Assembly: GCA_000722615.1 (NCBI GenBank)
Contig: JOKI01000020.1
Span: 37,012-101,011 of the forward strand
DNA from: Pseudorhizobium pelagicum
GTDB lineage: Bacteria > Pseudomonadota > Alphaproteobacteria > Rhizobiales > Rhizobiaceae
Length of the DNA: 64,000 bases
Reading direction: 5' to 3'
Positions 24,181-40,066 of this stretch are shown in pieces. The notes below the pieces were generated by a model. The model worked only from the letters and a program-made list of their open reading frames with translations, had not been told where the DNA came from and searched no databases. How positions within the stretch are numbered: position 1 is the first letter of the stretch; each line of letters starts with the position of its first letter. The position numbers and the translations under genes are program-made.

Positions 24181-24200
24181 GGATCGGAACTCCGGGACCG

Positions 24201-24698
24201 TCAGAGGCCAAGGCTGGCGAGAAGGCCGGACGGCATACGCACGCCCAGCACGATGACGAACATCACCCAGAGGAAAACGGCACCGAGTGTCGCCACCGCA
24301 AGGACGCGCGCCTTGTTGCCGGCTCCGAGATAGAGCGCGGTCACGAGAAGCAGCACGGCGACGGAGAGAAGGTAGCCGAGCGTCTCGACGACGAAGATGT
24401 AGCCGACGCCGATTGCGAGCAGGCCGGCCGCGAAAAGCAGCTTGCGCCCCTGCCCGTCCCATTCACCTTTTTCCCCGGTGCCCTTTTCCCCACCCGCCAC
24501 GGCCAGGCGTCGCGACACGATCCCCTGGGTCGTCAGGATTGCGCCGAGGCCGACAAGGAGCCAGCCATAGACGCGCGGCAGGCCGCCAGGCCCCATGCTG
24601 TCGTCCAGCGCACTCGTGCGCAGTTGATAGGAGAAAATGAGGTAGACGGCACCGATTGCGATGGACGCGACACCGCCGACGAAGTCCCGGGTTAGCAT
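24201..24698 (-). CDS. tctB: Tripartite tricarboxylate transporter small subunit, TctB family (second set)
   Basis: A 165-residue protein with four transmembrane helices and the TctB layout: first helix IAIGAVYLIFSYQL, then SALDDSMGPGGLPRVYGWLL, a hydrophilic loop rich in Gly/Glu/Lys, and helices 3-4 including FVVETLGYLLSVAVLLLV. It lies between tctC (92-bp gap) and tctA (20-bp gap). Confidence 0.88.
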   Translation of the reverse strand: MLTRDFVGGVASIAIGAVYLIFSYQLRTSALDDSMGPGGLPRVYGWLLVGLGAILTTQGIVSRRLAVAGGEKGTGEKGEWDGQGRKLLFAAGLLAIGVGYIFVVETLGYLLSVAVLLLVTALYLGAGNKARVLAVATLGAVFLWVMFVIVLGVRMPSGLLASLGL

Positions 24699-25744: not shown

Positions 25745-25848
25745 TGGTGAAATCCTCCCAGATTGTGACCGAACCTCCCGTTCAGTCGTTTGATCAGGCC
25801 TTTAGGCACTTTCGGCAGTCCGGATATGGCAAGCCTATGCCTCTACAT

Positions 25849-25865
25849 TGTCAAGTGTCAACAAT
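25849..25865. promoter_or_regulatory. Operator-like element upstream of tctC (second set)
   Basis: TGTCAAGTGTCAACAAT is a TGTCAA direct repeat that matches the element before the third tctC (32105-32121) and, in reverse complement, the one before mmgE (32242-32258), at 15 of 17 positions or nearly so. Read along transcription it is ATTGTTGACACTTGACA, so it may overlap a -35 box. It lies 105 bp from the start codon, close to the spacing at the other two sites. Confidence 0.65.
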
Positions 25866-25897
25866 TCTATCTAAAAAATATCGGAGGCGTTTCTTCG

Positions 25898-26256
25898 TCA
25901 TTCGAGCGCCACGCGCGTATCTCGGAAAGCGTTCTGGTCGAGCGTCAGGCCGAGCCCCGGACGGTTGGGTGTCTCGAGGAAGCCATCCTTCGGCTTCGGC
26001 GCGTCGGTGAAAAGTGTTTCGCCGACGGCGACCATTCCGAGGTGCCACTCGACGATCCAGCCGTTCATCATGCCGGCCAGGAGATGCATGTTGAAAAGCG
26101 GCCAGCCGCCGCCATTGGCGATCGGCATGTTGTAGATCTGGGCGAGATGCGCGATTTTCCGCGCCCGCTATCGCCGCCGCAATAGGTAACATTGGGCTGC
26201 AGGATGTCGAGCGACTGGTGCTCGACAAACTCGCGCATGAGAAGCGCGCTCCCCGC
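25898..26256 (-). pseudogene. C-terminal remnant of an enolase-superfamily (mandelate racemase-like) enzyme
   Basis: The minus strand encodes LMREFVEHQSLDILQPNVTY and CGG. After a one-base frame change it continues KIAHLAQIYNMPIANGGGWP, FNMHLLAGMMNGWIVEWHLG and RPGLGLTLDQNAFRD to a stop at 25898. This is the last third of a mandelate racemase/sugar-acid dehydratase. The N-terminal capping domain and catalytic Lys/His strands are absent; the break coincides with the promoter of the next gene. It marks an old deletion or rearrangement at the junction between the two halves of the island. Confidence 0.8.
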
Positions 26257-26292
26257 GCGATGGAGTCGAGGTATTGTCTAGCGCATTTCAAT

Positions 26293-26304
26293 ATTGTAGA
26301 CAAT
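26293..26304. promoter_or_regulatory. Palindromic operator-like site ATTGTAGACAAT
   Basis: A perfect-arm palindrome (ATTGT-AG-ACAAT) lies 22 bp before the dehalogenase-like ATG; a half site TATTGTCTA lies at 26272-26280. The 14-mer TATTGTAGACAATC matches the reverse complement of the site before the GntR gene (39326-39339, TATTGTAGGCAATA) at 12 positions. This form is usual for FCD-type GntR operators. Confidence 0.65.
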
Positions 26305-26325
26305 CTACAGATTGAGGGATTGGAA

Positions 26326-27267
26326 ATGCATACCATCGAAATGCCGATGCTCACCAAAAATCTCGCGCTGATGGAAGGCTTCAGACGCGAAACGGTAAAG
26401 ACGTCAGGCGCCGAGATCGAAGTCGCCGTCGCCGGCAGCGGTCCGCCGCTCCTCTTGATCCACGGCAATCCGCTGACCCTGGTGAGCTGGCACAAAATTG
26501 CGCCGGCTCTCGCCAAGACCTTCACGGTGATTGCGCCGGACCTCCGCGGCTACGGCGACAGTTCCAAGCCCGACGGCGGTGAAGACCATGCGGCCTACAC
26601 GTTCCGCGCCATGGGCGAGGACAATTTCGAGGTGATGGATTATTTCGGCTTCAACCGTTTCCAGATCGCCGGCCATGATCGCGGCGCGCGCGTCGGCTTC
26701 CGCATGGCGCTCGACCGGCCGGGGCGTGTGGAACGGCTGGCCGCCCTCGACATCGTGCCGACCCATCACGTGTTGACCAACGTCACGCTCGGCTGGGGGC
26801 TGGAAAGCTATCACTGGTTCTTCATGGCGCAGAAGGCGCCCTTCCCCGAGCGGCTGATTTGCGCCGAGCTAGACTATTACATCCAGTACAAGCTAAACAA
26901 GAAGGGCGTCGGTCTTGAGATATTCACGCCAGAAGCCATGGCCGAATATGTCCGCTGCACCACGGCCGAACAGATCCACGCCGTCTGCGAGGATTACCGA
27001 GCGACGGTGACCCTTGACCTCGCCATGGATACGGCCGACTTCGGCCGGCGCCGGATTGCATGCCCCGTCATGGTGATCTGGGGCACCAACAGCCACTGCG
27101 GCCGTCATTTCAAGCCGGTCGAGGCCTGGAGCGAATGGGCCGACGATGTCAGCGGCTTCGGCATCCCAACCGGTCACTACCCCGCGGAACATCGCCCGGA
27201 CATCGTCTATCCGCTGTTCTGGGAGTTCTTCACCGGCCGCAACCCGCATTGGGACGATGCGCCATGA
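26326..27267 (+). CDS. Haloacetate (fluoroacetate) dehalogenase-like alpha/beta hydrolase
   Basis: A 313-residue alpha/beta hydrolase with an Asp nucleophile. Residues expected from fluoroacetate dehalogenases are all present: HGNP oxyanion loop (46-49), nucleophile Asp118 followed by Arg119 and Arg122 (GHDRGAR), Asp142 in LDIVPT, halide-pocket His163-Trp164 (SYHW), Tyr224 (CEDYRA), and catalytic His284 (GHYPAE). Known members hydrolyse fluoro- or chloroacetate, but many homologues have untested substrates. The gene starts an operon with the rhodanese gene (ATGA overlap). The upstream frame could extend to 26218, but the start at 26326 fits the family N-terminus and lies behind the operator-like palindrome. 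Confidence 0.82.
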   Translation: MHTIEMPMLTKNLALMEGFRRETVKTSGAEIEVAVAGSGPPLLLIHGNPLTLVSWHKIAPALAKTFTVIAPDLRGYGDSSKPDGGEDHAAYTFRAMGEDNFEVMDYFGFNRFQIAGHDRGARVGFRMALDRPGRVERLAALDIVPTHHVLTNVTLGWGLESYHWFFMAQKAPFPERLICAELDYYIQYKLNKKGVGLEIFTPEAMAEYVRCTTAEQIHAVCEDYRATVTLDLAMDTADFGRRRIACPVMVIWGTNSHCGRHFKPVEAWSEWADDVSGFGIPTGHYPAEHRPDIVYPLFWEFFTGRNPHWDDAP

Positions 27268-28850
27268 GTTCGCGCATCGTCCAGGTCGAGGAAGCACGCC
27301 GCCGCCTGCACGACGGCGGCGAAATCGCCCTGCTGGATGTCCGCGAGGCAGGGCAGTTTGGCGAGGCGCATCCGCTCTTTGCCACGCCCTGCCCCTATTC
27401 CCGGCTTGAAATTCTCGTGCCCCGAGTTGTGCCGCGACGGACGGCGCCGGTGCTGCTTCTCGACGCCGGCGACGGTTTGGCAGCGCGCGCCGCAAAGCGG
27501 CTCGAAGCCCTCGGCTACACGAATGTCAGCGTCGTTGCCGGCGGCATGCCAGCTTGGGCGGCGGCCGGTTTTCCTGTCTACAAGGGCGTCAACGTGCCCT
27601 CGAAGACGCTCGGCGAACTCGCCGAACAGATCTGGCATCCGTCGATGATCACGCCGGAACAGCTTACCGCATGGAAAGCCGAGGGACGCAAGTTCGGCTT
27701 CTTCGATGCGCGCCCGGCTGATGAATATGTCAAGATGCGCGTGCCCGGTGCTGCCTGCCTGCCGAACGGCGAACTGGCGCACCGCCTCCCCGTGGCAGCG
27801 GATCCAGAAACACCTCTCGTCATTACCTGCGCCGGCCGTACGCGCGGCATTATTGGCGCCATAGGCGTCAACCTTGCGGGACACACGGGTCCGGTTCTGG
27901 CGCTCGAAAACGGCACGCAGGGCTGGGCGCTGGCCGGCGGACCGCTGGAACGCGGCAACAGGGCTGCTGCCTTTCCTAAACTCTCGCCTGCCGAGGCCGA
28001 ACGCACCCGCGCTTCCGCGCATTCGCTGATTGAACGCTTCGGCATCGCGACGGTCGATGCGGCCGGGATCGAGGATTTCCTCGCCGACGATGGCATGACG
28101 ACCTATCTGCTCGACGTGCGCTCGGCCGCCGAAGCTACGGCCGATCCAATTCCTGGCGCGGAGCATGCACCGTCGGGCCAGCTCGTGCAGGCGACCGACC
28201 AGTGGATCGCGGTGCGCCATGCGCGGCTCGTTCTCATCGATAACCTTGGCATGCGCGCAGCGCTTGCCGCTTTCTGGCTGCGGCAACTGGGTTACCACCC
28301 TCATGTTGCGATCATCGACGACGCAATGCGTCGGCGGGTGCACCGAGACGCGGCAGCTATGCCGTTGCCATCGCCTGCCCTACCGTCGATCATGCCTGAA
28401 GAGGCGCTCCGGCATGTCGCGGCCCGCACAGCGGTCTTCGTCGACCTGCGCGGATCGTTCGCCTATCGCGAAAACCATGTCGATGGCGCGATCTGGCTTG
28501 TGCGGCCCAACGCCGAAGCCTTCGCCGGTACCATCTGCGCCCGGACGGCGCTGCTGATCGCCGATGATCTGTGCGTTGCCGAACTGGCTGCCATGGACCT
28601 CCGCGAGGGCGGGATTGTGGCGCTGCATCTGGTGGAGGGCGGCCACAAGGCCCTTGTCTATGCCGGCGCGCCGACCGTTGCGACACCGGACACGCCCTCA
28701 GACGCCAGGGCCATCGACCACCTCTTCTTCGTCCACGACCGCCATGACGGCAACCTGGAATCCTCCCGGCGCTACCTCGCCTGGGAAACCGGCCTGATCG
28801 ATCAGCTTGATGACGTCGAGCGCGCGGAGTACCGGCTCGACCGTCCATGA
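27264..28850 (+). CDS. Four-domain rhodanese-related protein
   Basis: A 528-residue protein of four tandem rhodanese-like domains (about residues 5-105, 120-225, 262-355 and 385-470). Each carries the fold markers, for example LLDVREAGQF, FFDARPADEY, LLDVRSAAEA and FVDLRGSFAY. Only domain 2 has a Cys at the catalytic loop (ITCAGRTRG, Cys189). The matching loops of domains 1, 3 and 4 read LDAGDG, IDNLGM and ADDLCV and lack it. Rhodaneses move sulfane sulfur. The coupling to a dehalogenase-like hydrolase by a 4-bp overlap suggests they share a substrate, possibly an organosulfur or thiol acid. This is speculation. Confidence 0.85.
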   Translation: MSSRIVQVEEARRRLHDGGEIALLDVREAGQFGEAHPLFATPCPYSRLEILVPRVVPRRTAPVLLLDAGDGLAARAAKRLEALGYTNVSVVAGGMPAWAAAGFPVYKGVNVPSKTLGELAEQIWHPSMITPEQLTAWKAEGRKFGFFDARPADEYVKMRVPGAACLPNGELAHRLPVAADPETPLVITCAGRTRGIIGAIGVNLAGHTGPVLALENGTQGWALAGGPLERGNRAAAFPKLSPAEAERTRASAHSLIERFGIATVDAAGIEDFLADDGMTTYLLDVRSAAEATADPIPGAEHAPSGQLVQATDQWIAVRHARLVLIDNLGMRAALAAFWLRQLGYHPHVAIIDDAMRRRVHRDAAAMPLPSPALPSIMPEEALRHVAARTAVFVDLRGSFAYRENHVDGAIWLVRPNAEAFAGTICARTALLIADDLCVAELAAMDLREGGIVALHLVEGGHKALVYAGAPTVATPDTPSDARAIDHLFFVHDRHDGNLESSRRYLAWETGLIDQLDDVERAEYRLDRP

Positions 28851-28862
28851 CCGGAAACGCAC

Positions 28863-28910
28863 CGGGCCGGCAGCGACCAATTGGAGTGGCTGCCGGCCCG
28901 TTTGTTCGTT
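28863..28910 (+). terminator. Intrinsic terminator between convergent rhodanese and tctA genes
   Basis: CGGGCCGGCAGC (28863-28874) pairs perfectly with GCTGCCGGCCCG (28889-28900) over a 14-nt loop, followed on the plus strand by TTTGTTCGTT. It begins 12 bp after the rhodanese stop, and tctA ends at 28925 from the other side. It may serve both directions. Confidence 0.8.
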
Positions 28911-28924
28911 GGCCTCCTGGAACG

Positions 28925-30448
28925 CTAGCCCGTCTGCGCGGCGGCCAGGGCCGCTTGCTTCACGCGGCGTCGCTTGGAGATTACCTGCAGCAGGATCGAA
29001 CCAAGCATCAGTGCGAAGATCACCAGCGCCCAAGGCCGTTCGAGCCCATAGCCGATGAAGTCGCCGCCGCTGATCTGGTTCGTTCTGAGCAGGTTGCCTT
29101 CGAGCAGGCTGCCGAGCAGAAGCCCGACTACGGCCGCCGCCACAGGATAGCCGTAGCGCACCATGGCCCAGCCGAGCACCGAAAACACCCACAGCGTGAT
29201 CGGCCCCGCGGAACTACCCTCTATGGCATAGGCGCCGAATGTCGAAACGACGAGGACGCTCGGAATCAGGAAGCGAAGCGGAACCCTTACGACATAACCC
29301 GCCACATAGACGAAGCCGAGGCCAACAAAGAAGAGCAGTACAGCCTGCGCGAAGTTGGAAAAGATGACGGCGTAGACAATATCCTTGTTGTGGGCGATGA
29401 AGCTCGGACCGCCGACGATATTGTGCATGGCAAAGGCTGCAAGCAGGATTGCTGTTGCGCCACCGCCAGGAATTCCAAGCGCCAGCATCGTTGCCATTGC
29501 GCCGCCCTCGGACGAGGAATTTGCTGCCTCGGCCGCAATTACGCCCTTCGGGTTGCCTTGACCGAACGTATCACCGTCGGCGGCGTTGCGCTTCGTTTCC
29601 GAATAGGAAAGGAGGTTTGAAATCGACGAACCGACGCCGGGGATGGCGCCGATGATGACGCCGATCAGCGAGCCGCGGAAAATGATCGTCGGGTAGCGGA
29701 ATGCCTGACGGACCCCGCCGAGGATCTTGGCGAAACTGATGTTTCGCGAGCCCTCGTCTTCGATCAAATAGGTCGTATTGATAAGACCGATCAACTGGCT
29801 GGCCGCAAGTAGCCCCATCATCGCGGGGATCTGGGGCACGCCGTCGAGAAGCCACGGAATGCCGATCGTCCCGCGGACGAAACCGGCCGTGTTCATGCCC
29901 ACAGTTCCGAGCAGCACGCCGAACGTGCCGGCCAGAAGACCGCGACTCATCTGTGTACCCGCAAGCGAGCCGAGCAGCAGCATGCCCCACACGGCGACGG
30001 CGAACATTTCGAGCGGCCCGAGCTTTAGGACGACGCCGGAGATCGGGACGATCAGTACGAAGAGCATGACATAGCTGGCAAGGCAACCGATGACCGAGGA
30101 GGCAAGCGCGATACCGAGGGCCTCGCTATGTTGCCCCTTGCGTGCCATCGGATAGCCGTCGAAAGTGGTCGCAACGGCCGACGACGTGCCGGGAATGCCC
30201 ATCAAGACTGCCGGAACCGATCCGCCGAAACCCGCACCCGTATAGATCGCGGTCAGGAAAACGATGGCCGGCAGAAACTCCATGTAGAGCGTTGCCGGCA
30301 AGGCAAAGGCCATGGCCATCGTGATGGATATGCCGGGCATTGCGCCGAAGACGAGCCCGATCGCCAGGCCGGGAAGCAGATAGAGCCAGGCGTTGATGTC
30401 GGACGACAACAGCGTGAAGGCTCCGGAAACAGAATTCAGCTCGATCAC
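28925..30448 (-). CDS. tctA: Tripartite tricarboxylate transporter large permease, TctA family (third set)
   Basis: A 507-residue permease with about twelve helices and TctA motifs: GLVFGAMPGISITMAMAFAL near residue 35, MGIPGTSSAVATTFDGYPM, GAIPGVGSSISNLLSYSETK near 270, and LGIPGGGATAILLAAFAMHN near 330. It is 10 bp downstream of tctB and closes the minus-strand tctCBA operon, convergent with the rhodanese gene. Confidence 0.94.
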   Translation of the reverse strand: MIELNSVSGAFTLLSSDINAWLYLLPGLAIGLVFGAMPGISITMAMAFALPATLYMEFLPAIVFLTAIYTGAGFGGSVPAVLMGIPGTSSAVATTFDGYPMARKGQHSEALGIALASSVIGCLASYVMLFVLIVPISGVVLKLGPLEMFAVAVWGMLLLGSLAGTQMSRGLLAGTFGVLLGTVGMNTAGFVRGTIGIPWLLDGVPQIPAMMGLLAASQLIGLINTTYLIEDEGSRNISFAKILGGVRQAFRYPTIIFRGSLIGVIIGAIPGVGSSISNLLSYSETKRNAADGDTFGQGNPKGVIAAEAANSSSEGGAMATMLALGIPGGGATAILLAAFAMHNIVGGPSFIAHNKDIVYAVIFSNFAQAVLLFFVGLGFVYVAGYVVRVPLRFLIPSVLVVSTFGAYAIEGSSAGPITLWVFSVLGWAMVRYGYPVAAAVVGLLLGSLLEGNLLRTNQISGGDFIGYGLERPWALVIFALMLGSILLQVISKRRRVKQAALAAAQTG

Positions 30449-30458
30449 GGCGCCTCGC

Positions 30459-30926
30459 TCAAAGAATTGTCAGAGGGAAAGGAAATGGCGTGATGGTTCC
30501 GTATCCGTAGATCAGGACCACGGTGAAGACTGCACTGAACAGCAGGTTGGCCCACCATCGTCTTTCGCCGCAGACAGCAAGCCCGATCACCATGAAGGCG
30601 AAGGTCGCAATGTCGAAGCCGACGACTTCCAGCGAGAAGGCGAGACCGGCCAGGGCAGCGATCAGAATGAAGACGCGCACAAGGTCACCGCGTGTCTCGC
30701 CTTCCGTTTCCGCTTCCTCGGCCGCATCGGCACGCGGGAAAATGCCCGGCAGCACAAAAGCGGCAAGCACGAACGCAAGGATTGCCGCCGGCTGTACCAG
30801 AAGGAGGTTGTTGGTGCGCAGGGACACGCCCCGCGCATCCAGAAGATAGGCGACGACGACCCCGGTGATCACGGTCAGGAGGATCAGGTGACCCCAGATG
30901 ACCTTCCGACCTGATTTGGTGCTCAT
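30459..30926 (-). CDS. tctB: Tripartite tricarboxylate transporter small subunit, TctB family (third set)
   Basis: A 155-residue protein with four hydrophobic helices (LILLTVITGVVVAYLL first), a short acidic loop (AAEEAETEGE), and two terminal helix pairs; this is the TctB pattern. The start MSTKSGRK at 30926 is preferred over an upstream in-frame ATG lying inside the hairpin region. It follows tctC with a 69-bp gap containing a 10-bp stem-loop. Confidence 0.85.
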   Translation of the reverse strand: MSTKSGRKVIWGHLILLTVITGVVVAYLLDARGVSLRTNNLLLVQPAAILAFVLAAFVLPGIFPRADAAEEAETEGETRGDLVRVFILIAALAGLAFSLEVVGFDIATFAFMVIGLAVCGERRWWANLLFSAVFTVVLIYGYGTITPFPFPLTIL

Positions 30927-30943
30927 GGACGTGCTCTCCCGTC

Positions 30944-30981
30944 TTGCGTGAAGTGTCCGCCTAGGCGCACGCTTCACGCAA
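30944..30981 (-). other. Stem-loop between tctC and tctB
   Basis: TTGCGTGAAG (30944-30953) pairs perfectly with CTTCACGCAA (30972-30981) around an 18-nt loop. It lies just after the tctC stop with no T-run, the usual position for an element that stabilises the receptor message or attenuates the permease genes. Confidence 0.55.
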
Positions 30982-30995
30982 ACGTTGCCAGGCAA

Positions 30996-31997
30996 CTAGT
31001 TGCCCTTCAACAGTTCGATATACTGTTCCATCACCTGTGCAGTACGGGCGAGCATCTTGTTGGACTCTTCGGGCCCGTACCAGTCGGTGGCGAGTTGCTG
31101 GTTCTTCAGCGCTTCGATCGCGGCCGGGTTCTTGGAGGCAGCTTCGATCGCGCCTACGAGCGTCTTGAAGATCTCGGGATTGGACGTCTGCATCGAGCGA
31201 TGCAAGCCCCAGCCGCGCTGAGAGCCCACCACGAAGTCGGCATCGGCACCGAGAACATCCGTTACGATCGCGCCTTCCCAGTTGTCACGCTTGCGGCTGT
31301 CGAAGGTCAGCAGAGGGCGAATTTGTTCCGCCAGCGGCAGGAAGCCTTCGCCACCGACGAAACCGACATCAACGACACCGCCCGCGACCGCATTGCGGGC
31401 AGGACCGCCGCCATCATAGGTGACGACGCGCACGGCACTGCTATCGATCTGGTTCGCCGCGCACAAGATGCTAAAATTCACCAGGTCGGCCGATGCCGGC
31501 TGAAGGCCGACTGAAAGGCTGCCGGGATCCGCCTTGAGGCGGGAAATCGCATCTTCGACCGACTTGACGTCGGAGCCTGCGCTGGTCGCCATCAGAGTGT
31601 AGTCCTGCGACGGCAGGTTGACCATGTAGAAGTCCTCCAGCTTGAAGGAGGCATCCTGCGTCAGAACGTTGAGCGGCAGATAAGGCGCGGCCGAAGTGCA
31701 GAGGATGGTGTAGCCGTCGTCAGGTTGCTGCAGAAAGAACGTGTGTCCGAGCAGCGCGCCAGCGCCGCCGCGGTTGATGATCGTTAACGGCTGCCCGAGT
31801 TCCTCTTGGAGGAACGGGGCGAAGGCCCTCGCCAAGCGGTCGTTGTAGCCCCCGGTATCAAATGGCACGACAATATTGATGGGACGATCTGGATAGGCAC
31901 CCTGGGCGCGCAAGATTGACGGCGACGCGAGCGCTGCAAAGGCAACACCTCCGGCACTCGCCTTGAGAATGGTACGGCGCGAAACTTTGGATATCAT
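30996..31997 (-). CDS. tctC: Tripartite tricarboxylate transporter substrate-binding protein, TctC family (third set)
   Basis: A 333-residue receptor whose export signal carries a twin-arginine motif, SRRTILKASAGGVAFAALAS, before AQGAYPDRP. This is unlike the plain Sec signals of the other two tctC products. Bug-family elements follow: INIVVPFDTGGYNDRLARAF, LTIINRGGAGALLGHTFFLQ and DSSAVRVVTYDGGGPARNAV. The start at 31997 has GGAGGAAATTAAG before it. It is divergent from mmgE at 32378 across a region with two copies of the shared operator-like element. Confidence 0.9.
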   Translation of the reverse strand: MISKVSRRTILKASAGGVAFAALASPSILRAQGAYPDRPINIVVPFDTGGYNDRLARAFAPFLQEELGQPLTIINRGGAGALLGHTFFLQQPDDGYTILCTSAAPYLPLNVLTQDASFKLEDFYMVNLPSQDYTLMATSAGSDVKSVEDAISRLKADPGSLSVGLQPASADLVNFSILCAANQIDSSAVRVVTYDGGGPARNAVAGGVVDVGFVGGEGFLPLAEQIRPLLTFDSRKRDNWEGAIVTDVLGADADFVVGSQRGWGLHRSMQTSNPEIFKTLVGAIEAASKNPAAIEALKNQQLATDWYGPEESNKMLARTAQVMEQYIELLKGN

Positions 31998-32104
31998 CTT
32001 AATTTCCTCCAAGGCCTTTGCAGGCTCCCTCTCCCTTGCCAGCCCGATGTGAGCGGGATGACGGCGACCTCTCCCAAGGCCTGCGCAAAGGCTAGAAACG
32101 AATT

Positions 32105-32121
32105 AGTCAACTGTCAACAAT
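32105..32121. promoter_or_regulatory. Operator-like element upstream of tctC (third set)
   Basis: AGTCAACTGTCAACAAT matches the element at 25849-25865 at 15 of 17 bases. It lies 108 bp before the tctC start codon, against 105 bp for the second tctC, and has the same orientation relative to the gene. The conserved part is TGTCAACAAT. Confidence 0.65.
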
Positions 32122-32241
32122 AATTCCACGAATCGGGTCTCCCCCACCTCGTGTGCGTTCTCTCAGCAGCTGGACAATCCAAATTCCCCCCATATGCCGC
32201 TTTTCGGCTTAATTAAACGAAAATCCTAACACCGTCCCAAA

Positions 32242-32258
32242 GTTGTTGACAATTGACA
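32242..32258. promoter_or_regulatory. Operator-like element upstream of mmgE/prpD in the divergent promoter
   Basis: The minus strand reads TGTCAATTGTCAACAAC, the same TGTCAAnTGTCAACAA pattern as before both tctC genes. It sits 120 bp ahead of the mmgE/prpD start and has the same orientation relative to transcription as the other two. With the site at 32105 it forms a two-operator divergent control region (32013-32377). Confidence 0.65.
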
Positions 32259-32377
32259 GATACTCCGTTTGTTTGGCGGCGACGGCGAGGGAGCGCCGAA
32301 CCGGCTTCGCGCGCATGCGCTTCATTGAGTCCGGGTCAGGCAGGCTTCTCCGCGGAAGCAAAAATGGGAGGACCAGA

Positions 32378-33802
32378 ATGACTGCCGTGACCAAGATCGA
32401 TACCGCGACCGACACAACCGGGTTGACCCATGAAGTTGCCCTCTTCGTTCATGCCGCAAAAAGTGCCGACCTGCCGGCAGTCGTCGTCGCAAACGGCAAG
32501 AAATCGATCCTTGACGGCCTCGGCCTTGCGCTGTCCGGATCCGTCGCCACATCGGGCGAATATGTCCGCCGTCACCTCGACGACATCGGTGCGGTAACCG
32601 GCACGGCCACCGTCATCGGCACAGATCGCAAGGTCCCGCCGCGCTTTGCCGCCTTTGCAAACGGCGTCGGCATCCATGCGGATGACTATGACGACACGCA
32701 GCTCGCCGTCGCCAAGGATCGTGTCTACGGCCTACTGACACATCCGACGGCGCCTGCTTTGCCCTCGGCGCTGGCCATGGGGGAGACGCTCGGCGCCAGC
32801 GGCGCGGATGTCATGCTTGCCTACCACATCGGCGTCGAAGTTGAATGCAAGATCGCCGAGGCGATCAATCCGCGCCACTACCAGACCGGGTTCCACGCAA
32901 CCGCCACCTGTGGCACCTATGCCGCGGCCGCCGCCGCCGGCCGCCTGATGGGCCTGAACGTCGAGCAGTTGCTGCGCGCCCTTTCCATCGCCGGCAGCCA
33001 GTCGGCAGGCCTGCGCGAAAATTTCGGGACGATGACAAAGCCCTTCCATGCCGGCCGCTCCTCGGAAAGCGGCGTGGCTGCTGCGCAGTTCGCCTCCTAT
33101 GGCTGGACGGCCGCGCCGACGATCCTCGAAGCGCCACGCGGCTTCTTCTCGGCCGCCGGCGGCGGCTACGATGAAAACGCAATTCGCGGCAAGCTCGGCA
33201 ATCCCTGGACGTTCGACAGCCCCGGCATATCCATCAAGCCGCATCCATCGGGCTCGCTGACCCATCCCGGCATGACCGAGATGCTGCGCCTCATCAAGGA
33301 AAACGGCATCAAAGCATCGGACGTCGAGCACGTGCGCGTCGGCACCAACCACAACATGCCGAACGCGTTAATCCATCACCGGCCGCAGAACGAGTTGCAG
33401 GCAAAATTCTCCATGCAGTTTTGCATGGCCATCCTGCTGATCGAGGGCCGCGCCGGGCTCAACGAATTCACCGATGAAGTTGTGCTGCGAGACGACGTCA
33501 AGGCAATGATATCCAAGGTCGATTTTGTGGTCGACGAGCGCGCCGAGGCCGCCGGCTATCACCTGATGACCACCTATATCGACATCACACTGAAGGACGG
33601 CCGCACAATCTCCGGCAGGGCGGATTTCGGCAAGGGCAGCCCGGCCAACCCGATGAGCTACGACGAGGTCGCGACGAAGTTCCTCGAATGCGCCGAATTC
33701 GCACGGTGGGACATGGGCAAGGCCCGCGAGGTCGTCGGCATGGTGTCCGAGTTCGAAAAGCTTGCAGACATCCGCAAGCTGATGGCGCTGGTCAGCAACT
33801 GA
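32378..33802 (+). CDS. MmgE/PrpD family protein (third of four)
   Basis: A 474-residue superfamily member most like the one at 14478. Landmarks are SILDGLGLALSGSVAT, the active-site segment GIHADDYDDTQLAVAKD near residue 100, GFHATATCGTYAAAAAAGRL near 180, FGTMTKPFHAGRSSESG near 225, and SIKPHPSGSLTHPGM near 290. The ATG at 32378 follows GGGAGGACC; the frame is open upstream to 32243, but that part is promoter. It is first gene of the six-gene plus-strand operon running to ttuC, opposite the third tct set. Activity could be dehydration, decarboxylation or epimerisation of a hydroxy polycarboxylate. Confidence 0.9.
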   Translation: MTAVTKIDTATDTTGLTHEVALFVHAAKSADLPAVVVANGKKSILDGLGLALSGSVATSGEYVRRHLDDIGAVTGTATVIGTDRKVPPRFAAFANGVGIHADDYDDTQLAVAKDRVYGLLTHPTAPALPSALAMGETLGASGADVMLAYHIGVEVECKIAEAINPRHYQTGFHATATCGTYAAAAAAGRLMGLNVEQLLRALSIAGSQSAGLRENFGTMTKPFHAGRSSESGVAAAQFASYGWTAAPTILEAPRGFFSAAGGGYDENAIRGKLGNPWTFDSPGISIKPHPSGSLTHPGMTEMLRLIKENGIKASDVEHVRVGTNHNMPNALIHHRPQNELQAKFSMQFCMAILLIEGRAGLNEFTDEVVLRDDVKAMISKVDFVVDERAEAAGYHLMTTYIDITLKDGRTISGRADFGKGSPANPMSYDEVATKFLECAEFARWDMGKAREVVGMVSEFEKLADIRKLMALVSN

Positions 33803-33806
33803 AATC

Positions 33807-34949
33807 ATGGCACGGATCACCGCGATGGATGACAAGCCTCGACCACCAACGCTTGCAGAAACGGGCAAGCAGCCGGATGCGGCAAGGCGTTTTCGCCCTC
33901 CGCACTGGTGGCTGATGCTTGCACTTACCTATTCCGTCGCAGCGGCGGCCGGCTTCGTGGCGAAGGCCGTCAACATGCCGCTGCCTTTCATGCTCGGCCC
34001 GTTCTTCGTCATGGCGGCGCTCTCGGTTCTCGGCTTTCGGTCGGTTCTCGCGCCGATGGGACGTGAACTTGGCCAGGTTGCGATCGGTGTCGCTGTCGGC
34101 ATGCGTTTCACGCCGGCCGTGCTTGCTGCCATGACGGGCCTTTTGCCGGCCATGGTGCTCGGCACGATCTATGTCGTTATCTTCACCATGGCGGCGGCAT
34201 TTCTCTTCAAGCCGCTAGCGAAGGTGGACGACATCACCGCCTTCTTCGCAACCGCTGCCGGCGGTGTCGCCGACATGGCAACGGTGGCAAAGGATTACGG
34301 CGGCGCGGCCGGCTCGGTCGCGGTCGTGCACGCCATGCGCGTGTCCGGCGTGGTCGCGCTCGTGCCCTTCCTCGTCGTTCTCTTCGGCGAGCCGGGAAAC
34401 GCACCCGATTCGGCGGCCGTGGACTCGCACTGGGCCCTCGTCATCGTCACGCTGGCGCTCGGCTACCTGATGGCCCGGCTCTTGAAACCGACGCCGCTGC
34501 CCAATCCCTGGCTCGTCGGGCCGATCTTCATGGGCATCATCATTGGCGTGCTTGGACTTTACTCCGTCAGGATCCCATCCCTACTGATCAGTATCGCGCA
34601 GATCATGCTCGGCACCTGGCTCGGCTGCCAGTTCAAGCGCGATCTCCTGGCGGCGCTGCCGCGCGTCACCTTAGCGGCGCTCATCATCTCGCTCTTCATG
34701 ATCGGCTGCGCGGCAGTGGGCGCCGTGGTGCTCACGCTCACGACCGGCCTTCCTTATCCAACGAGCTTCCTGTCGCTGGCGCCGGCCGCCGTCACGGAAA
34801 TGGTCGTGACCGCGCAGGTCATGCATCTGGAGGCGGAAGTCGTGACGGCCTTCCATGTAACGCGCATTGCCGTCGTCTCGTCGACGGTGCTCATCGTCTT
34901 CAAGTTCTATCTTCGACTAAAGGGAGGCTCCATTGAACCTGGGATATAA
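33807..34949 (+). CDS. AbrB family membrane protein (second module)
   Basis: A 380-residue membrane protein with a hydrophilic N-terminal tail of about 30 residues and roughly ten helices in two AbrB repeats. Motifs include VNMPLPFMLGPFFVMAALSV near residue 52, ATAAGGVADMATVAKDYGG near 150, LPNPWLVGPIFMGIIIGVLG near 230, LGTWLGCQFKRDLLAALPR and LSLAPAAVTEMVVTAQVMHL near 325. The substrate of this family is unknown. It begins 5 bp after mmgE/prpD and mirrors the abrB gene of the first module. It may supply an additional uptake or export route for a pathway acid. Confidence 0.88.
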   Translation: MARITAMDDKPRPPTLAETGKQPDAARRFRPPHWWLMLALTYSVAAAAGFVAKAVNMPLPFMLGPFFVMAALSVLGFRSVLAPMGRELGQVAIGVAVGMRFTPAVLAAMTGLLPAMVLGTIYVVIFTMAAAFLFKPLAKVDDITAFFATAAGGVADMATVAKDYGGAAGSVAVVHAMRVSGVVALVPFLVVLFGEPGNAPDSAAVDSHWALVIVTLALGYLMARLLKPTPLPNPWLVGPIFMGIIIGVLGLYSVRIPSLLISIAQIMLGTWLGCQFKRDLLAALPRVTLAALIISLFMIGCAAVGAVVLTLTTGLPYPTSFLSLAPAAVTEMVVTAQVMHLEAEVVTAFHVTRIAVVSSTVLIVFKFYLRLKGGSIEPGI

Positions 34950-35724
34950 GGAGCGTCGTGCGCTGATCGTTGGCGGCAGCTACGGCATCGGCAAGGCCTC
35001 GGCCGCCATCATGGGCGCCGAGGGCGCTGATTTGGTGATCGCCTCGCGCTACGCCGACAATCTCAATGAAGCGGCAGACGGAATCGCCGCATCGGGAGCC
35101 GCCCGGCCGGCGACGCTGGTCTGCGACGTGACGCAGCCCGGCGCTGGCGAAAAGCTGGCAACGGCAGTAAGAGAGCGCTGGGGGGCGCTGGATCTGCTCG
35201 TCACCGCCGTCGGCGGCAGCATCCGCTCCTCCTTTGAGGACCTGACCGACGAGGACTGGCTCAGCAACTACACCTTCAACATCCTTTCGACCGTGCGCGC
35301 CATCCGCGCCCTGCTGCCGGCGCTCGCAAAGGGCGAGAACCCGGCGATCGTGACCCTCGGCGCAGCGGCCTCCAAGATGCCCTACCAGCACCAGATCGTC
35401 TCGAACGTGCACAAGGCCGGCCTGCTTGGCCTGACCAAGACGCTCGCCGCCGAACTCGCCGACCGCAACATCCGCATCAACTGCGTCGCGCCCGGTCGCA
35501 CGCTGACACCGCTCTGGACCAAGCGCGCCGACACCATGGCCGGCGAACAGGGCCGGACGCGGGAAGACATCCTTAGCGATTTCTCGAAGGACATTCCGCT
35601 CGGCCGCTTCGCCAGCCCCGAAGAGGTGGCGACGATGGTGGTGTGGCTCGCAAGCCCGCGCGCCAGCTACATCACCGGCCAGACAGTCAACGTGGACGGC
35701 GGCATTGCCCGCGGTCTTCTCTAA
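34933..35724 (+). CDS. SDR family protein with altered active site (second module), TTG start
   Basis: A 263-residue SDR. The likely start is TTG at 34933, with AGGGAGG 5 nt upstream, overlapping the abrB end by 17 bp. The cofactor loop is VGGSYGIGKASA. The catalytic site is unusual: Lys161 is kept in VHKAGLLGLTK, but the residue four before it is Ser157 rather than Tyr, the Ser position near 144 is Ala, and the NNAG motif is replaced by TAVGGS. Like the SDR at 20524 it has lost the canonical Ser-Tyr pair while keeping Lys and the cofactor site. Confidence 0.87.
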   Translation: MNLGYKERRALIVGGSYGIGKASAAIMGAEGADLVIASRYADNLNEAADGIAASGAARPATLVCDVTQPGAGEKLATAVRERWGALDLLVTAVGGSIRSSFEDLTDEDWLSNYTFNILSTVRAIRALLPALAKGENPAIVTLGAAASKMPYQHQIVSNVHKAGLLGLTKTLAAELADRNIRINCVAPGRTLTPLWTKRADTMAGEQGRTREDILSDFSKDIPLGRFASPEEVATMVVWLASPRASYITGQTVNVDGGIARGLL

Positions 35725-35741
35725 GTTACAAGGAGAATGAA

Positions 35742-37142
35742 ATGAGTCAGCACCAGGCAACCGCCCCCGGCATTCCCAAGGTGACAGAAACGCTCGCCGA
35801 CTGGGTCGTCACTATCAGGGGTAGCGACATCGCACCCGATGTTCGCCGCGAGGGGCTCAGGACCTTTGTCAACTGGGCCGGCTGCGCTGTCGGCGGCGCA
35901 AGCCACGAGACGGTCGACCGGGCGCTGGCGGCCGTCACGCCCTTCTCCGGCAAGCCGACTTCGACGGTTCTTGGACGACACGAGAAGCTCGACGCGCTGC
36001 ATGCGGCGCTTCTGAACGGCATCACCTCGCACGTGCTCGACTATGACGACACGCACCTGAAGACAATCATCCATCCGGCGGGCCCCGTTGCCTCCGCCTT
36101 GCTGGCGCTGGCGGAAATGCGGCCCATTTCCGGCTACGACATCTTGACGGCGCTGATCGTCGGCATCGAGGTCGAGTGCCGGATCGGCAATTCGGTATAC
36201 CCACACCATTACGACCGCGGCTGGCACATAACCGGCACGGCCGGCGTCTTCGGTGCGGCCGCTGCCGTCGGCAAGGTGATCGGGCTCAATGCGCAGCAGA
36301 TGCGCTGGGCCTTCGGCCTGGCCGCCACCCAGGCCTCGGGATTGCGCGAAATGTTCGGCACGATGACCAAGAGCTTCCATCCCGGCCGAGCCGCGCAGAA
36401 CGGCATGTTCGCAGCACTTCTGGCGGAGGCGGACTTCGACAGCTCGGAGCGCGCGATCGAGGCGCCGCGCGGCTTCGCTAACGTCACGTCCGAGAAGCAG
36501 GACTATTCCGAAATACTCGACGATCTGGGCACGCGCTGGGAATCGGCGCTCAACAGCTACAAGCCGTTCGCCTGCGGCATCGTCATCCACCCGACCATCG
36601 ACGGCTGCATCCAGCTCCGCGACGAACTCGGCGAAGAAAAAATCCGGCATATCCGCTCCGTCGAACTGACGGCCCATCCGCTGGTGCTCGAACTGACCGG
36701 CAAGACCGCGCCGAAGACCGGCCTCGAGGGCAAGTTCTCGGTCTATCACGCGGCGGCGGCGGCCCTTCTCAAGGGCGACGGCGCACCGACCGCCTTCACC
36801 GACGAGATCGTCAGGAATCCGGAGATCATCGCACTTCGCGACCGCATCAAAGCGACCGCTGACAAGACATGCCACGAGGCCTCCGTCGACATTCTCCTAA
36901 CCTTCGATGACGGCACGACCGCTGCCAAGCGCGTCGAACGGGCGATCGGCTCGAAGGAAGTGCCGCTCACCGACGCACAGATAAATCACAAGTTCACGGT
37001 CCAGTCGGCGCTGGTCGTCGGCGAGTCGGTGACGAAGGCACTTCTTGAAACATCATGGAAGCTCGAAGAGTTGAAGGATGCCGCCGAAGTCGCGCGCGCC
37101 AGCGTTCCCGTATCCACCGCCAAGACGGCAGCAGCAGAATGA
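35742..37142 (+). CDS. MmgE/PrpD family protein (fourth of four)
   Basis: A 466-residue member: TFVNWAGCAVGGASHETVDR near residue 45, the active-site segment GITSHVLDYDDTHLKTIIHP near 95, GWHITGTAGVFGAAAAVGKV near 165, FGTMTKSFHPGRAAQNG near 205 and YKPFACGIVIHPTIDG near 270. The HxLDYDDTH...HP pattern is that of PrpD/cis-aconitate-decarboxylase-like proteins. The start at 35742 follows AAGGAGAATGA. Its stop overlaps the start of the dehydrogenase gene (ATGA), so the two products are coupled. Confidence 0.9.
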   Translation: MSQHQATAPGIPKVTETLADWVVTIRGSDIAPDVRREGLRTFVNWAGCAVGGASHETVDRALAAVTPFSGKPTSTVLGRHEKLDALHAALLNGITSHVLDYDDTHLKTIIHPAGPVASALLALAEMRPISGYDILTALIVGIEVECRIGNSVYPHHYDRGWHITGTAGVFGAAAAVGKVIGLNAQQMRWAFGLAATQASGLREMFGTMTKSFHPGRAAQNGMFAALLAEADFDSSERAIEAPRGFANVTSEKQDYSEILDDLGTRWESALNSYKPFACGIVIHPTIDGCIQLRDELGEEKIRHIRSVELTAHPLVLELTGKTAPKTGLEGKFSVYHAAAAALLKGDGAPTAFTDEIVRNPEIIALRDRIKATADKTCHEASVDILLTFDDGTTAAKRVERAIGSKEVPLTDAQINHKFTVQSALVVGESVTKALLETSWKLEELKDAAEVARASVPVSTAKTAAAE

Positions 37143-38242
37143 ACCAGATGACAAAGAAAACATCACTCAGGATCGGCATCCTCGAAGGCGACGACATCGG
37201 CCACGAGGTCGTGCCCGCCTCGGTCCGGATCGCAAAGGCCGCGGCGGCCGCGACCGGGATGGCCATCGATTGGGTCGATGTGCCGATCGGCCGACGTGCG
37301 CTGGATACGCATGGGCACACCATGCCCGAGGGAACGCTCGAGATACTAGGGGCACTGGACGGCTTCATCCTCGGCCCGATCGGCCATCGCGAATATCCCA
37401 AGGTGCCGGAGGCGATCAATCCGCATCCGATCCTGCGCAAACGCTTTGACCTCTTCGCCAACGTGCGCCCGACGCGCTCGTTTCCCGGCATCGGCTGCCT
37501 GCACGACGACATCGACATGGTGATCGTGCGCGAGAACAACGAGGGCTTCCAGCCGGACCGCAACGTCGTGATGGGCTCCGGCGAATTCCGCCCGACCCAT
37601 GACGTGACGATCTCGGTCCGCGTCATCACCGTCGAGGGCTCGTCCAAGGTGGCGCGCGCGGCATTCGAAATCGCCCGTTCGCGCCGCAAGAAGCTGACGC
37701 TGGTGCACAAGAACACCGTCTACAAGCTCGGGTGTGGCATGTTCGTCGATAGTTGCTACGAGGTGGCCAAGGAGTTTCCAGACGTTGAGGTGAACGAGGT
37801 GATCGTCGACACCATGGCAATGCGGCTGGTGCGCGATCCGCAAAGCTTCGACACGGTCGTCACCACCAATATGTTCGGCGACATCCTGACCGACGAGGCC
37901 GCCGGTCTTGTCGGCGGTCTTGGCATGGCACCGGGGCTGTGCATCGGCCGCGGCTCGATCGCGATGGCGCAGGCGACGCACGGCTCGGCCCCCGACATCG
38001 CCGGCAAGGGCATCGCCAATCCCTTTGCGATGATCGAATCGACCCGTATGCTCTTCGACTGGATGGGACATCACCACCAGATCGATGCGGCGCTCGAGAT
38101 GTCGCGCATCATGAAGGCCGGCATTGACGTGGCCCTTGCCAACCCCACGACACGCACACCCGACATCCGCGGCACGGGCACGCAGGCCGACATGGTTAAC
38201 GGCATCCTGCGCGGCATGGAGGCAGCCCATGCGCCGATATAG
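37139..38242 (+). CDS. Isocitrate/isopropylmalate dehydrogenase family protein
   Basis: A 367-residue beta-decarboxylating dehydrogenase. Family motifs are GILEGDDIGHEVVPASV, LFANVRPTRSFPG, VIVRENNEGFQPDRN near residue 125, the catalytic Lys in VHKNTVYKLGCGMF near 200, the metal Asp cluster NMFGDILTDEAAGLVGGLG near 245, and the NAD loop THGSAPDIAGKGIANP near 285. The RENNEGFQP substrate loop differs from LeuB, Icd and the neighbouring TtuC. The substrate is therefore not one of the standard ones; a 2-hydroxy-3-carboxy acid made by the adjacent MmgE/PrpD enzyme is plausible. It overlaps the next gene by 14 bp. Confidence 0.87.
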   Translation: MNQMTKKTSLRIGILEGDDIGHEVVPASVRIAKAAAAATGMAIDWVDVPIGRRALDTHGHTMPEGTLEILGALDGFILGPIGHREYPKVPEAINPHPILRKRFDLFANVRPTRSFPGIGCLHDDIDMVIVRENNEGFQPDRNVVMGSGEFRPTHDVTISVRVITVEGSSKVARAAFEIARSRRKKLTLVHKNTVYKLGCGMFVDSCYEVAKEFPDVEVNEVIVDTMAMRLVRDPQSFDTVVTTNMFGDILTDEAAGLVGGLGMAPGLCIGRGSIAMAQATHGSAPDIAGKGIANPFAMIESTRMLFDWMGHHHQIDAALEMSRIMKAGIDVALANPTTRTPDIRGTGTQADMVNGILRGMEAAHAPI

Positions 38243-39302
38243 GATTGCCGCGATCGGCGGTGACGGCGTCGGGCCAGAAGTAATCGAGGCGGGGCTCTCT
38301 GTTCTCTCGGACCTGGCCGGGCGCGAAGGCTTCACGCTCGACGTCACCCGCTTCGACTGGGGCTCGGACTACTACCGCCGCACCGGACGCATGATGGCGG
38401 CGGACGGGGTGGAGCAGTTGAAGAGTTTCGACGCCATCTATTTCGGGGCCGTCGGCGATCCAGACATACCCGACCACATCACGCTCTGGGATCTCAGGCT
38501 CGCCATCTGCCAGGGGCTCGACCAATATGCCAACGTGCGCCCGACGAAGCTGATCGGCGGAATGCGCGGGCCATTGCGGTGCGAACTCGGAGATCAGATC
38601 GACTGGGTGATCGTACGCGAGAACTCAGAGGGCGAGTATGCGGGCGTCGGCGGTCGCGCCCATGCGGGGCTTCCGATTGAGCTGGCCATGGACGTTGCGG
38701 TCTTCACCCGCGCCGGCGTGGAACGCATCTGCCGCTTTGCTTGCGAGACGGCGATCGCGCGACCGCGCAAGCGGCTCACCGTCGTCACCAAGTCAAACGC
38801 CCAGCGCCACGGTATGGTGCTATGGGACGAGGCCTGCCGCGATGTGCTGAAGGACTTTCCGGAGCTCGACGTCGACTGGAAGCTAGTCGACGCCATGGCC
38901 GCGCTAATGGTAACGAAACCGGGCGATTTCGACACGATCCTTGCGAGCAACCTCCACGCCGACATTCTGTCCGACCTCGCCTCGGCGCTGACGGGAAGCC
39001 TGGGCAATGGTGCGACGGGCAATGTCGATCCATCGGGAAAACACCCGTCCATGTACGAGCCGATTCACGGCTCGGCCTTCGAGATCATGGGAAAGGGCAT
39101 CGCCAATCCCATCGGAGCCTTCTGGACCGGCGCGTTGATGTTGGAACATCTCGATGAGGCGGCAGCGGCTGAAAAACTCATGAGCGCGATCGAATCCGTC
39201 AGCCGGTCGGGACCGCATACCCCGGACCTTGGCGGCCAAGCTGATACGCGCGCCGTCACGCAAGCCATTCTGGACGCGATAAGGCGAGGCAACCGATATT
39301 AG
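38229..39302 (+). CDS. ttuC: Tartrate dehydrogenase/decarboxylase (D-malate dehydrogenase) family protein
   Basis: A 357-residue NAD-dependent enzyme of the TtuC/DmlA branch: RIAAIGGDGVGPEVIEAGLS, FDWGSDYYRRTGRMM, DAIYFGAVGDPDIPDH, QYANVRPTKLIGGM, VIVRENSEGEYAGVGGR near residue 130, VTKSNAQRHGMVLWDE with catalytic Lys, SNLHADILSDLASALTGSLG and EPIHGSAFEIMGKGIANPIG. Known members oxidise tartrate or D-malate, some with decarboxylation to glycerate or pyruvate. It is last of the plus-strand operon and precedes the GntR gene by 50 bp. Together with the tarD-like gene at 18322 it points to tartrate-like substrates. Confidence 0.88.
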   Translation: MRRYRIAAIGGDGVGPEVIEAGLSVLSDLAGREGFTLDVTRFDWGSDYYRRTGRMMAADGVEQLKSFDAIYFGAVGDPDIPDHITLWDLRLAICQGLDQYANVRPTKLIGGMRGPLRCELGDQIDWVIVRENSEGEYAGVGGRAHAGLPIELAMDVAVFTRAGVERICRFACETAIARPRKRLTVVTKSNAQRHGMVLWDEACRDVLKDFPELDVDWKLVDAMAALMVTKPGDFDTILASNLHADILSDLASALTGSLGNGATGNVDPSGKHPSMYEPIHGSAFEIMGKGIANPIGAFWTGALMLEHLDEAAAAEKLMSAIESVSRSGPHTPDLGGQADTRAVTQAILDAIRRGNRY

Positions 39303-39325
39303 TTGCAGCTCACCTTCCCATTGTT

Positions 39326-39339
39326 TATTGCCTACAATA
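39326..39339. promoter_or_regulatory. Palindromic operator-like site before the GntR gene
   Basis: TATTGCCTACAATA is a TATTG-4-CAATA palindrome 13 bp ahead of the GntR start codon. Its reverse complement, TATTGTAGGCAATA, matches the site before the dehalogenase-like gene at 12 of 14 bases. This is a natural place for autoregulation. Confidence 0.6.
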
Positions 39340-39352
39340 GCAATCGTATGCA

Positions 39353-40066
39353 ATGGAACGTGCCATGTATCATCAGGAACCAAAGGTGCAGCTGAACGAT
39401 CTCGCGGTGCTGAGAACGTCGTCGCTGACGGGCGTCATCGAGCGTGAGCTCGAGCACTTGATCCTGACCGGGGAACTGAAGCCGGGCGAAAGGCTGAACG
39501 AGATTCAGCTATCGACGCGATTCGGCACCAGTCGCGGTCCGTTGCGCGAGGCGACGCGCAGCCTTCAGGCCAGGGGCCTCGTCGAAAGCATCCGTAATCG
39601 CGGCGTCTTTGTCCGTTCCGTGTCACCGACTGAAGCCCTCGAGATCTACGACGTTCGCGCAGCAATTTTCGGTCTTGCGGGGCGGCTGCTCGCCGATCTC
39701 GTCACCGATCAGATGCTGGCCCGGCTCAATGACTATCTCGACCAGATGGACAATGTCGCCGCGAGCAAGAACTTTGACGACTACTATCCGATTAACCTCG
39801 CTTTCCACGACTATCTGGTCACCGCCACCGGAAACGGGACGCTCGTCAAGGAGTACAAGGCTTTCGTCAATAAGCTGCACCTAGCGCGTGCGCGGGGCCT
39901 TGTTCAGGCCGGCGGGCTTTCGGTTTCGAACCGCGAGCACCGCGAGATGGTCGATGCACTTGCCTCAGGCAACCGTGAACGCGCCCAGGAAGCCTTCTTT
40001 CGCCATGTTGAGCGCTCAAAAATCCGTTTCCGCTCGACGCTCGACGCGGACGGGCTCCAGTCGTAA
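39353..40066 (+). CDS. GntR family transcriptional regulator, FCD subfamily
   Basis: A 237-residue regulator. The winged helix-turn-helix spans about residues 25-95 (ILTGELKPGERLNEIQLSTR, FGTSRGPLREATRSLQARGL) and the FCD domain about 100-225, with YPINLAFHDYLVTATGN and SNREHREMVDALASGN bearing metal/ligand residues. The start is ATG at 39353 or 39365. It ends the second module and has a palindromic site immediately upstream that recurs at the 26326 gene, with related elements before both tctC genes and mmgE at 32378. It is therefore the best candidate for regulator of both modules. Confidence 0.92.
   Translation: MERAMYHQEPKVQLNDLAVLRTSSLTGVIERELEHLILTGELKPGERLNEIQLSTRFGTSRGPLREATRSLQARGLVESIRNRGVFVRSVSPTEALEIYDVRAAIFGLAGRLLADLVTDQMLARLNDYLDQMDNVAASKNFDDYYPINLAFHDYLVTATGNGTLVKEYKAFVNKLHLARARGLVQAGGLSVSNREHREMVDALASGNRERAQEAFFRHVERSKIRFRSTLDADGLQS

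Follow-up and report, generated by a model that had tools for sequence, protein, structure and literature searches.

The window analysed here, a stretch of 64,000 nucleotides of Pseudorhizobium pelagicum DNA (assembly GCA_000722615.1, contig JOKI01000020.1, positions 37,012 to 101,011 of the forward strand), contains two gene modules, A and B, for tripartite tricarboxylate transporters, a hydrolase and a rhodanese gene lying between them, and the gene for an FCD-type GntR regulator of 237 amino acids (aa) (39353..40066, +; Pfam GntR and FCD). Five promoters of this cluster carry the same 12-bp palindrome, ATTGT-N2-ACAAT, and we put at roughly three in four the probability that these sites are operators of this GntR protein, which would act as an autoregulated repressor released by a carboxylate-like ligand. 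Module A includes tctC-A (24791..25744, -; Pfam TctC), encoding the solute receptor of the transporter, and a TctA-type permease gene (22666..24462, -; Pfam TctA). The alpha/beta hydrolase gene (26326..27267, +; Pfam Abhydrolase_1) is followed by a gene for a protein with three rhodanese stretches, the start codon of which is uncertain (27264..28850, +; Pfam Rhodanese, scanned from 27060). Module B includes tctC-B (30996..31997, -; Pfam TctC), followed by tctB (30459-30995; Pfam TctB) and tctA (28925-30448; Pfam TctA), and has mmgE/prpD as its first gene (32378..33802, +; Pfam), after which genes for an AbrB-type protein, an SDR protein, a second MmgE and two isocitrate/isopropylmalate-type dehydrogenases (IsoDH) extend to 39302 (Pfam). 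The gene content described in a first-pass annotation of this DNA, namely two paralogous modules separated by dehalogenase-like and rhodanese genes, plus an FCD GntR gene, agrees with the Pfam matches. The modules are distant paralogs, the gene pairs compared being 27-35% identical. The "dehalogenase-like" protein is an alpha/beta hydrolase, but its identity as a dehalogenase is unproven, given that its matches to haloalkane dehalogenase models lie far under the cut-offs.

One palindrome at five promoters

The first-pass annotation had placed a tandem TTGACA repeat, the 16-mer TGTCAAnTGTCAACAA, at three of these promoters, in the same orientation and 105-120 bp from the start codons, with palindromic relatives before the hydrolase and gntR genes. 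All of these elements are present, with small corrections. The 16-mers are TGTCAAGTGTCAACAA at 25849-25864 (+), 105 bp from the start codon of tctC-A, AGTCAACTGTCAACAA at 32105-32120 (+), which has one mismatch to the repeat as first described and lies 108 bp from the start codon of tctC-B, and TGTCAATTGTCAACAA at 32243-32258 (-), 120 bp from that of mmgE; their orientation relative to the downstream gene is identical. The hydrolase and gntR sites, read directly, are ATTGTAGACAAT (26293-26304) and ATTGCCTACAAT (39327-39338). The division into three repeats and two mere relatives does not hold, since all five are a single element, each with at most one mismatch to ATTGT-N2-ACAAT. The idea of a shared element was thus sound, but the direct repeat gives way to a palindrome: TGTCAAnTGTCAACAA was ruled out as the common element because its second TTGACA is not conserved in relatives, and this second copy corresponds to the outer arm of the operator, where AC(A) alone is retained.

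G009 and G031, two other genomes from this genus, contain nearly the whole cluster, with GntR proteins 93% and 92% identical to that of the window. All five operator cores are unchanged in both, while the surrounding DNA drifts: ATTGTTGACACT before tctC-A (25854..25865, -), ATTGTAGACAAT before the hydrolase gene (26293..26304, +), ATTGTTGACAGT before tctC-B (32110..32121, -), GTTGTTGACAAT before mmgE (32242..32253, +) and ATTGTAGGCAAT before gntR (39327..39338, -). The outer arms vary more. At tctC-A the arm TGACA (25849..25853, -) keeps ACA, TTGACA having become TTTACA in both genomes, and at tctC-B only AC is kept, TGACT (32105..32109, -) being replaced by CCACG; the mmgE arm TGACA (32254..32258, +) reads CAACA in both. 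The hydrolase arm CTACA (26305..26309, +) keeps ACA in the three genomes, and the gntR arm AAACA (39322..39326, -) is identical in all three. The distance between the starts of the tctC-B and mmgE operators is not constant (132, 137 and 136 bp in the three genomes).

In the tctC-A, tctC-B and mmgE operators of the three genomes, bases 5-10 form a TTGACA hexamer, followed 16-18 bp later by a weak -10 (e.g. TAGCCT), and the three sites point the same way because this -35 lies inside the operator. At tctC-A, the -35 (25856..25861, -), found in the same place in the three genomes, and the -10-like TAGGCT 18 bp from it (25832-25837, -) are consensus matches only. At tctC-B, the -35 (32112..32117, -) and the -10-like TAGCCT at 17 bp (32089-32094, -) are the same in G009 and G031, as are the mmgE -35 (32246..32251, +) and its weak -10, TTTGTT. 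The cores start much closer to the start codon at the hydrolase gene (33 bp) and at gntR (26 bp), where TACAAT (39333-39338, +), inside the operator, could be the -10 of gntR. Strong -35 boxes, partly doubled, might by themselves account for the tctC and mmgE sites, given that TTGACA is the -35 consensus and that its second copy is variable. This is very improbable, however, because conservation spans the full 12 bp, two further promoters carry the palindrome without TTGACA, and, of the 8,192 palindromes compared, this one holds the top rank ahead of gntR and hydrolase genes in other loci, as described below.

The palindrome in the rest of the genome

With up to two mismatches, the 16-mer occurs at four places in the 5.13-Mb genome: the tctC-A, tctC-B and mmgE sites and one two-mismatch place on contig C47. 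The pattern ATTGTNNACAAT, with up to one mismatch, occurs at six places in the window, five of them the promoter sites and the sixth (43868) inside an open reading frame (ORF; 43692-44909). The three intergenic stretches concerned (1,011 bp) thus contain five sites, against a mean of 0.02 and a maximum of 1 in 2,000 runs of a first-order Markov model built on those stretches, for a motif picked after the sites had been seen. The 12-mer is not unique genome-wide (44 places at up to one mismatch, versus 10 for a reversed control). When it is extended to a 17-mer with an outer arm, ATTGTNNACANTNNACA, seven places remain at up to one mismatch, five of which are the window sites; this pattern was drawn post hoc from the window sites and the clade and indicates specificity rather than independent proof.

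A further pattern, ATTGYCWACAAT, has 41 places at up to one mismatch, versus 12 for its reversed control. On the basis of ORFs and codon-position G+C, 35 of these were classed, 26 as coding-like and nine as not. Two of the 26 were found on inspection to precede plausible starts, namely the hydrolase operator (L006) and a place on contig C3 (L013). The nine comprise two window sites (L007 and L034), a place on contig C5 (L014), three places in long ORFs (L005, L031 and L184), and L017, L030 and L033; the one ORF looked at among these last three loci, in L033, has no Pfam match. The other six places are two window sites, window position 43868 (coding), two places on contig C37 and one on C47, in a coding-like ORF. 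The clearly non-coding places number nine, every one in or beside an FCD-GntR cluster (L017, L030 and L033 are outside this count). A perfect match at C1:280945 was ruled out as a member of the regulon, as it lies inside a 476-aa ORF that looks, by eye, like a mechanosensitive channel. Chance resemblance in AT-rich intergenic DNA would fit the 44 genome places and the 26 of 35 classed ATTGYCWACAAT places in coding-like ORFs. It is nevertheless scarcely credible for the five window sites: none of the 2,000 simulations gave five sites in 1,011 bp, the cores are unchanged in G009 and G031, and the ranking across the clade also speaks against it.

The palindrome among relatives of the regulator

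Relatives of the GntR protein were collected as 79 named loci (the best 80 of 589 candidates were kept). The region scanned in each comprised the 350 bp ahead of the GntR gene and the first 30 bp of the match, and the palindromes tallied there were all 8,192 that combine two 5-base arms with a spacer of 0-7. ATTGT-N2-ACAAT was the most frequent of them, being found exactly in 27 of the 79 regions and with up to one mismatch in 47. The corresponding exact and one-mismatch counts in control regions were 0 and 0 of 79 inside the GntR gene, 2 and 10 downstream, and 1 and 3 in the region 2 kb upstream, where contig ends shortened eight of the 79 regions or left them empty. When each 70% identity group was reduced to a single representative and the window clade was excluded (n = 40), the palindrome still came first (12 exact, 24 with up to one mismatch). 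Among other FCD-GntR genes at 27-39% identity, a control from which L064 was excluded, there were two exact sites (centre AC) and three of 23 with up to one mismatch. A tree built from 81 regulators shows the operator on either side of the deep forks, with only moderate clustering: exact sites require 12 changes, versus a shuffled mean of 16.5, and eight of 500 shuffles gave a value this low. The 32 rows that have no site do not enter this count. The consensus of 25 representatives is TGYAR-ATTGT-YR-ACAAT-YTRCA, with about 0.4-0.8 bits in the outer arms and 1.5-2.3 in the core.

The same palindrome ranks first before three kinds of neighbouring gene, counted with up to one mismatch: the hydrolase gene (9 of 11 stretches), tctC (13/46) and other GntR genes (7/9). 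These counts, like those of centres and -10 hexamers below, exclude L082 and L083, which are the window's own cluster in other species (L083, from Pseudorhizobium tarimense, has retained all three sites that fall in its stretch); the target counts also exclude matches starting past query residue 45, upstream stretches shorter than 120 bp and five stretches common to the GntR upstream region. Genes that are mostly internal to operons have few sites or none (TctA 0/13, TctB 0/8, AbrB 0/18, rhodanese 0/7, SDR 2/36). Three more distant genomes (G035, G001 and G005) have two GntR genes each, at 42-44% identity, with the palindrome immediately ahead of one gene and immediately past the second, where an mmgE or IsoDH gene comes next. 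A tct or mmgE gene was found near GntR in 53 of the 79 loci (by tblastn, E up to 1e-12, some loci being short). Of the 26 loci that gave no tct or mmgE match in this search, 19 have the operator ahead of gntR (14 of them exactly), so it is the regulator, and not the transporter, that the element accompanies. Read on the gntR strand of the relatives, 25 of 45 sites have TG at the centre and six the reverse, CA; a -10 with up to two mismatches follows on the gntR strand at 12 of the 25 TG-centred sites and on the opposite strand at two. TG is also the centre of 15 of 19 MmgE sites and six of nine hydrolase gene sites.

Several observations weigh against the assignment of the five sites to this regulator, or against the promoter arrangement read from them. 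No site with up to one mismatch precedes gntR in 32 of the 79 relatives, including three of the five nearest, in Hoeflea (L084), Afifella (L085) and Falsirhodobacter (L086); L084 and L085 repeat the window pair, a site ahead of tctC plus another ahead of mmgE, and L086 has no site at all in the locus DNA examined. The gntR site is less frequent in loci that have tct or mmgE nearby (28/53, 13 exact) than in the 26 others. Before tctC only two sites are exact, whereas ACTGT-N2-ACAGT is exact in five. Upstream of MmgE (17 of 86 stretches, from 44 loci) 11 other palindromes are commoner, and upstream of IsoDH (14 of 47 stretches, from 23 loci) four are, those shown being GC-rich in both cases. The centre is TG in only four of 13 tctC sites of relatives (CG in six) and five of 14 IsoDH sites (CA in eight), so the embedded -35 is not general. 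The -10 hexamers of the window are poor matches, and a promoter scan gave no promoter overlapping the gntR operator, including none using TACAAT at 39333-39338.

The regulator and its possible mode of action

The regulator has an N-terminal winged helix-turn-helix (PF00392, GntR; 60.8 bits, cut-off 27) and a C-terminal FCD domain (PF07729; 86.6 bits, cut-off 24.3), in which Asn148, His152, His196 and His218 are invariant in nine aligned rows, a set of residues that fits the metal site of Asn/Asp and three His present in many FCD regulators. FCD regulators are expected to have an operator core of the form GT-N(2-3)-AC, and ATTGT-N2-ACAAT, identified by conservation and by its ranking across the clade, is of this form. 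Independent support for the earlier proposal of a single FCD GntR reading all five sites comes from the conservation of the cores and the top rank of the palindrome upstream of GntR in the 79 relatives, and also from the sites upstream of hydrolase and tctC genes and the 19 of 26 loci without tct or mmgE.

The window protein used as a query has 25 matches in its own genome. One paralog, C37:14053-14724, is 38% identical to it and lies beside tct genes; the surrounding locus (G000:C37:13167-17880, L075) contains an FCD GntR gene with SDR, TctC and TctA-type genes. A further point against sole control by the local regulator is that C37 has, ahead of its own gntR, two similar operators, ATTGTCAACAAC and ACTGTTGACAAT, which lie 18 bp apart. 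The five sites might therefore be common to at least two FCD-GntR paralogs (C37 and perhaps others) under joint control, as with GntR1/GntR2 of Corynebacterium glutamicum, a case of redundant FCD paralogs already on record (PMC2230225); the near-operators ATTGTAGGCAGT (C3, L013 1501-1512) and ATTGCATACAAT (C5, L014 1501-1512), which adjoin two further FCD-GntR genes, point the same way. We consider joint control unlikely, since retention of the sites does not depend on C37: G009 and G031 have all five, and the C37 protein matches only the local gntR in these genomes at E up to 1e-25. The local gntR is, thus, the better candidate.

For control by the local GntR, the following mechanism is proposed. 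A GntR dimer would bind the 12-bp palindrome with one recognition helix per half-site and make extra contacts to the outer arms, TGYAR and YTRCA. At tctC-A, tctC-B and mmgE, the bound protein would cover the -35 TTGACA and exclude RNA polymerase; at gntR and the hydrolase gene, the core would lie at the promoter or transcription start, resulting in negative autoregulation of gntR. The ligand would be a small carboxylate, probably one that serves the transporter/MmgE pathway as substrate or intermediate; its binding to the FCD domain, which is predicted to contain a metal, would release the DNA, so that both transporter modules and the hydrolase-rhodanese operon would be switched on together. 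A protein bound over the -35 or near the start codon normally blocks transcription. The regulator might instead be an activator at some promoters, where the operator would serve as an upstream activating site. FCD regulators can act in this way, as CitO of Enterococcus faecalis does (PMC4746285), but the position of the operator, over the -35 or near the start codon (by consensus only), argues against activation and makes it quite improbable.

A metal-assisted carboxylate ligand is likely for the FCD domain because Asn148, His152, His196 and His218 resemble, on motif comparison, the zinc ligands Asn137, His141, His192 and His214 of Atu1419 from Agrobacterium fabrum (PMC7797058); the outer spacings of 4 and 22 agree, whereas the middle one is 44 in the window and 51 in Atu1419. 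Like the proposed window GntR, Atu1419 is an FCD/VanR-type, autoregulated repressor of catabolic genes, and its operator overlaps the -10 or lies between the -10 and -35, which we count as a likeness; it differs in its operator sequence, ATGTATACAT, its proposed effector, N5,N10-methylenetetrahydrofolate, and its hydroxycinnamate genes (PMC7797058). GntR1 and GntR2 of C. glutamicum, two FCD paralogs that read one operator set within a cell, are also comparable, although they control gluconate and glucose-uptake genes from sites fitting TNGTNNNACNA (PMC2230225). A likeness of locus content is offered by Vibrio sp. C42, whose alginate locus has GntR-1 and GntR-2 genes beside a tripartite tricarboxylate transporter, again in a catabolic setting, but with alginate genes; the terms "operator" and "palindrom" are absent from the main text of that report (PMC13390454).

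The nearest NCBIfam model is PhnR_burk (TIGR03338; phosphonate utilization regulator), which matches over nearly the full length of the protein with 227.7 bits, under the equivalog cut-off of 271.5, and there are no phosphonate genes among the scanned window genes (tct, mmgE, SDR, AbrB, dehydrogenase, hydrolase and sensor genes). The same operator, as ATTGTTGACAAT, nevertheless precedes a true PhnR (334.9 bits) at L118:1972-8339, the one locus annotated of the 26 without tct or mmgE, where the neighbours are genes for phosphonoacetate hydrolase, phosphonoacetaldehyde dehydrogenase and a 2-aminoethylphosphonate receptor. The operator thus seems to follow the regulator and not the pathway, a hint that it stays in place while the adjoining pathways change. 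A more general and rather doubtful extension would be that a broad PhnR/tct-associated FCD clade of Alpha-, Beta- and Gammaproteobacteria has kept one operator code, TGYAR-ATTGT-YR-ACAAT-YTRCA, while pathways (phosphonates, tripartite transporters with MmgE, others) were exchanged, and that paralogs in the same cell, still sharing this code, make up a cross-wired network.

To our knowledge, few members of the tct/MmgE-associated GntR clade have an assigned substrate. The palindrome provides a concrete candidate operator for a regulator clade often found beside tripartite tricarboxylate transporters and MmgE/PrpD enzymes, and the predicted co-induced set (the two transporter modules together with the hydrolase and rhodanese genes) narrows the search for the substrate. 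GT-N2-AC palindromes are already known for FCD regulators, in a FadR/FCD group that includes GntR, HpxS, HypR, MdcY, PrpR and UxuR (PMC4494728). This group and the window share an A/T-rich palindrome with TKGT/ACMA boxes, a 2-nt spacing and the same domain pair; the window differs in its outer arms, TGYAR/YTRCA, its frequent TG centre and its gene set, and "TctC" and "tricarboxylate" are absent from the main text of PMC4494728. Among the open-literature matches listed, judged by titles, abstract openings and text passages and including a look for six exact spellings of the operator, there was no study of ATTGT-N2-ACAAT with tct/mmgE genes. The regulon described here is a new, well-supported prediction of a familiar type.

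Three minor features of the cluster may be added. A 257-aa ORF without a Pfam match (28847-29620, +), on the strand opposite to the tctA gene of module B and overlapping it, is probably spurious. The second IsoDH gene (38124-39302) passes the tartrate dehydrogenase model (489.7 versus 470.4 bits); a second IsoDH is also present in L082, and no full-length gene was found in G009 or G031. Between tctC-A and the hydrolase gene, positions 25901-26158 (-) are what is left of a gene of the enolase superfamily: they preserve just the final 86 of the 388 residues (92% identical) of an ORF that is intact in G031, at the same place between the two genes.

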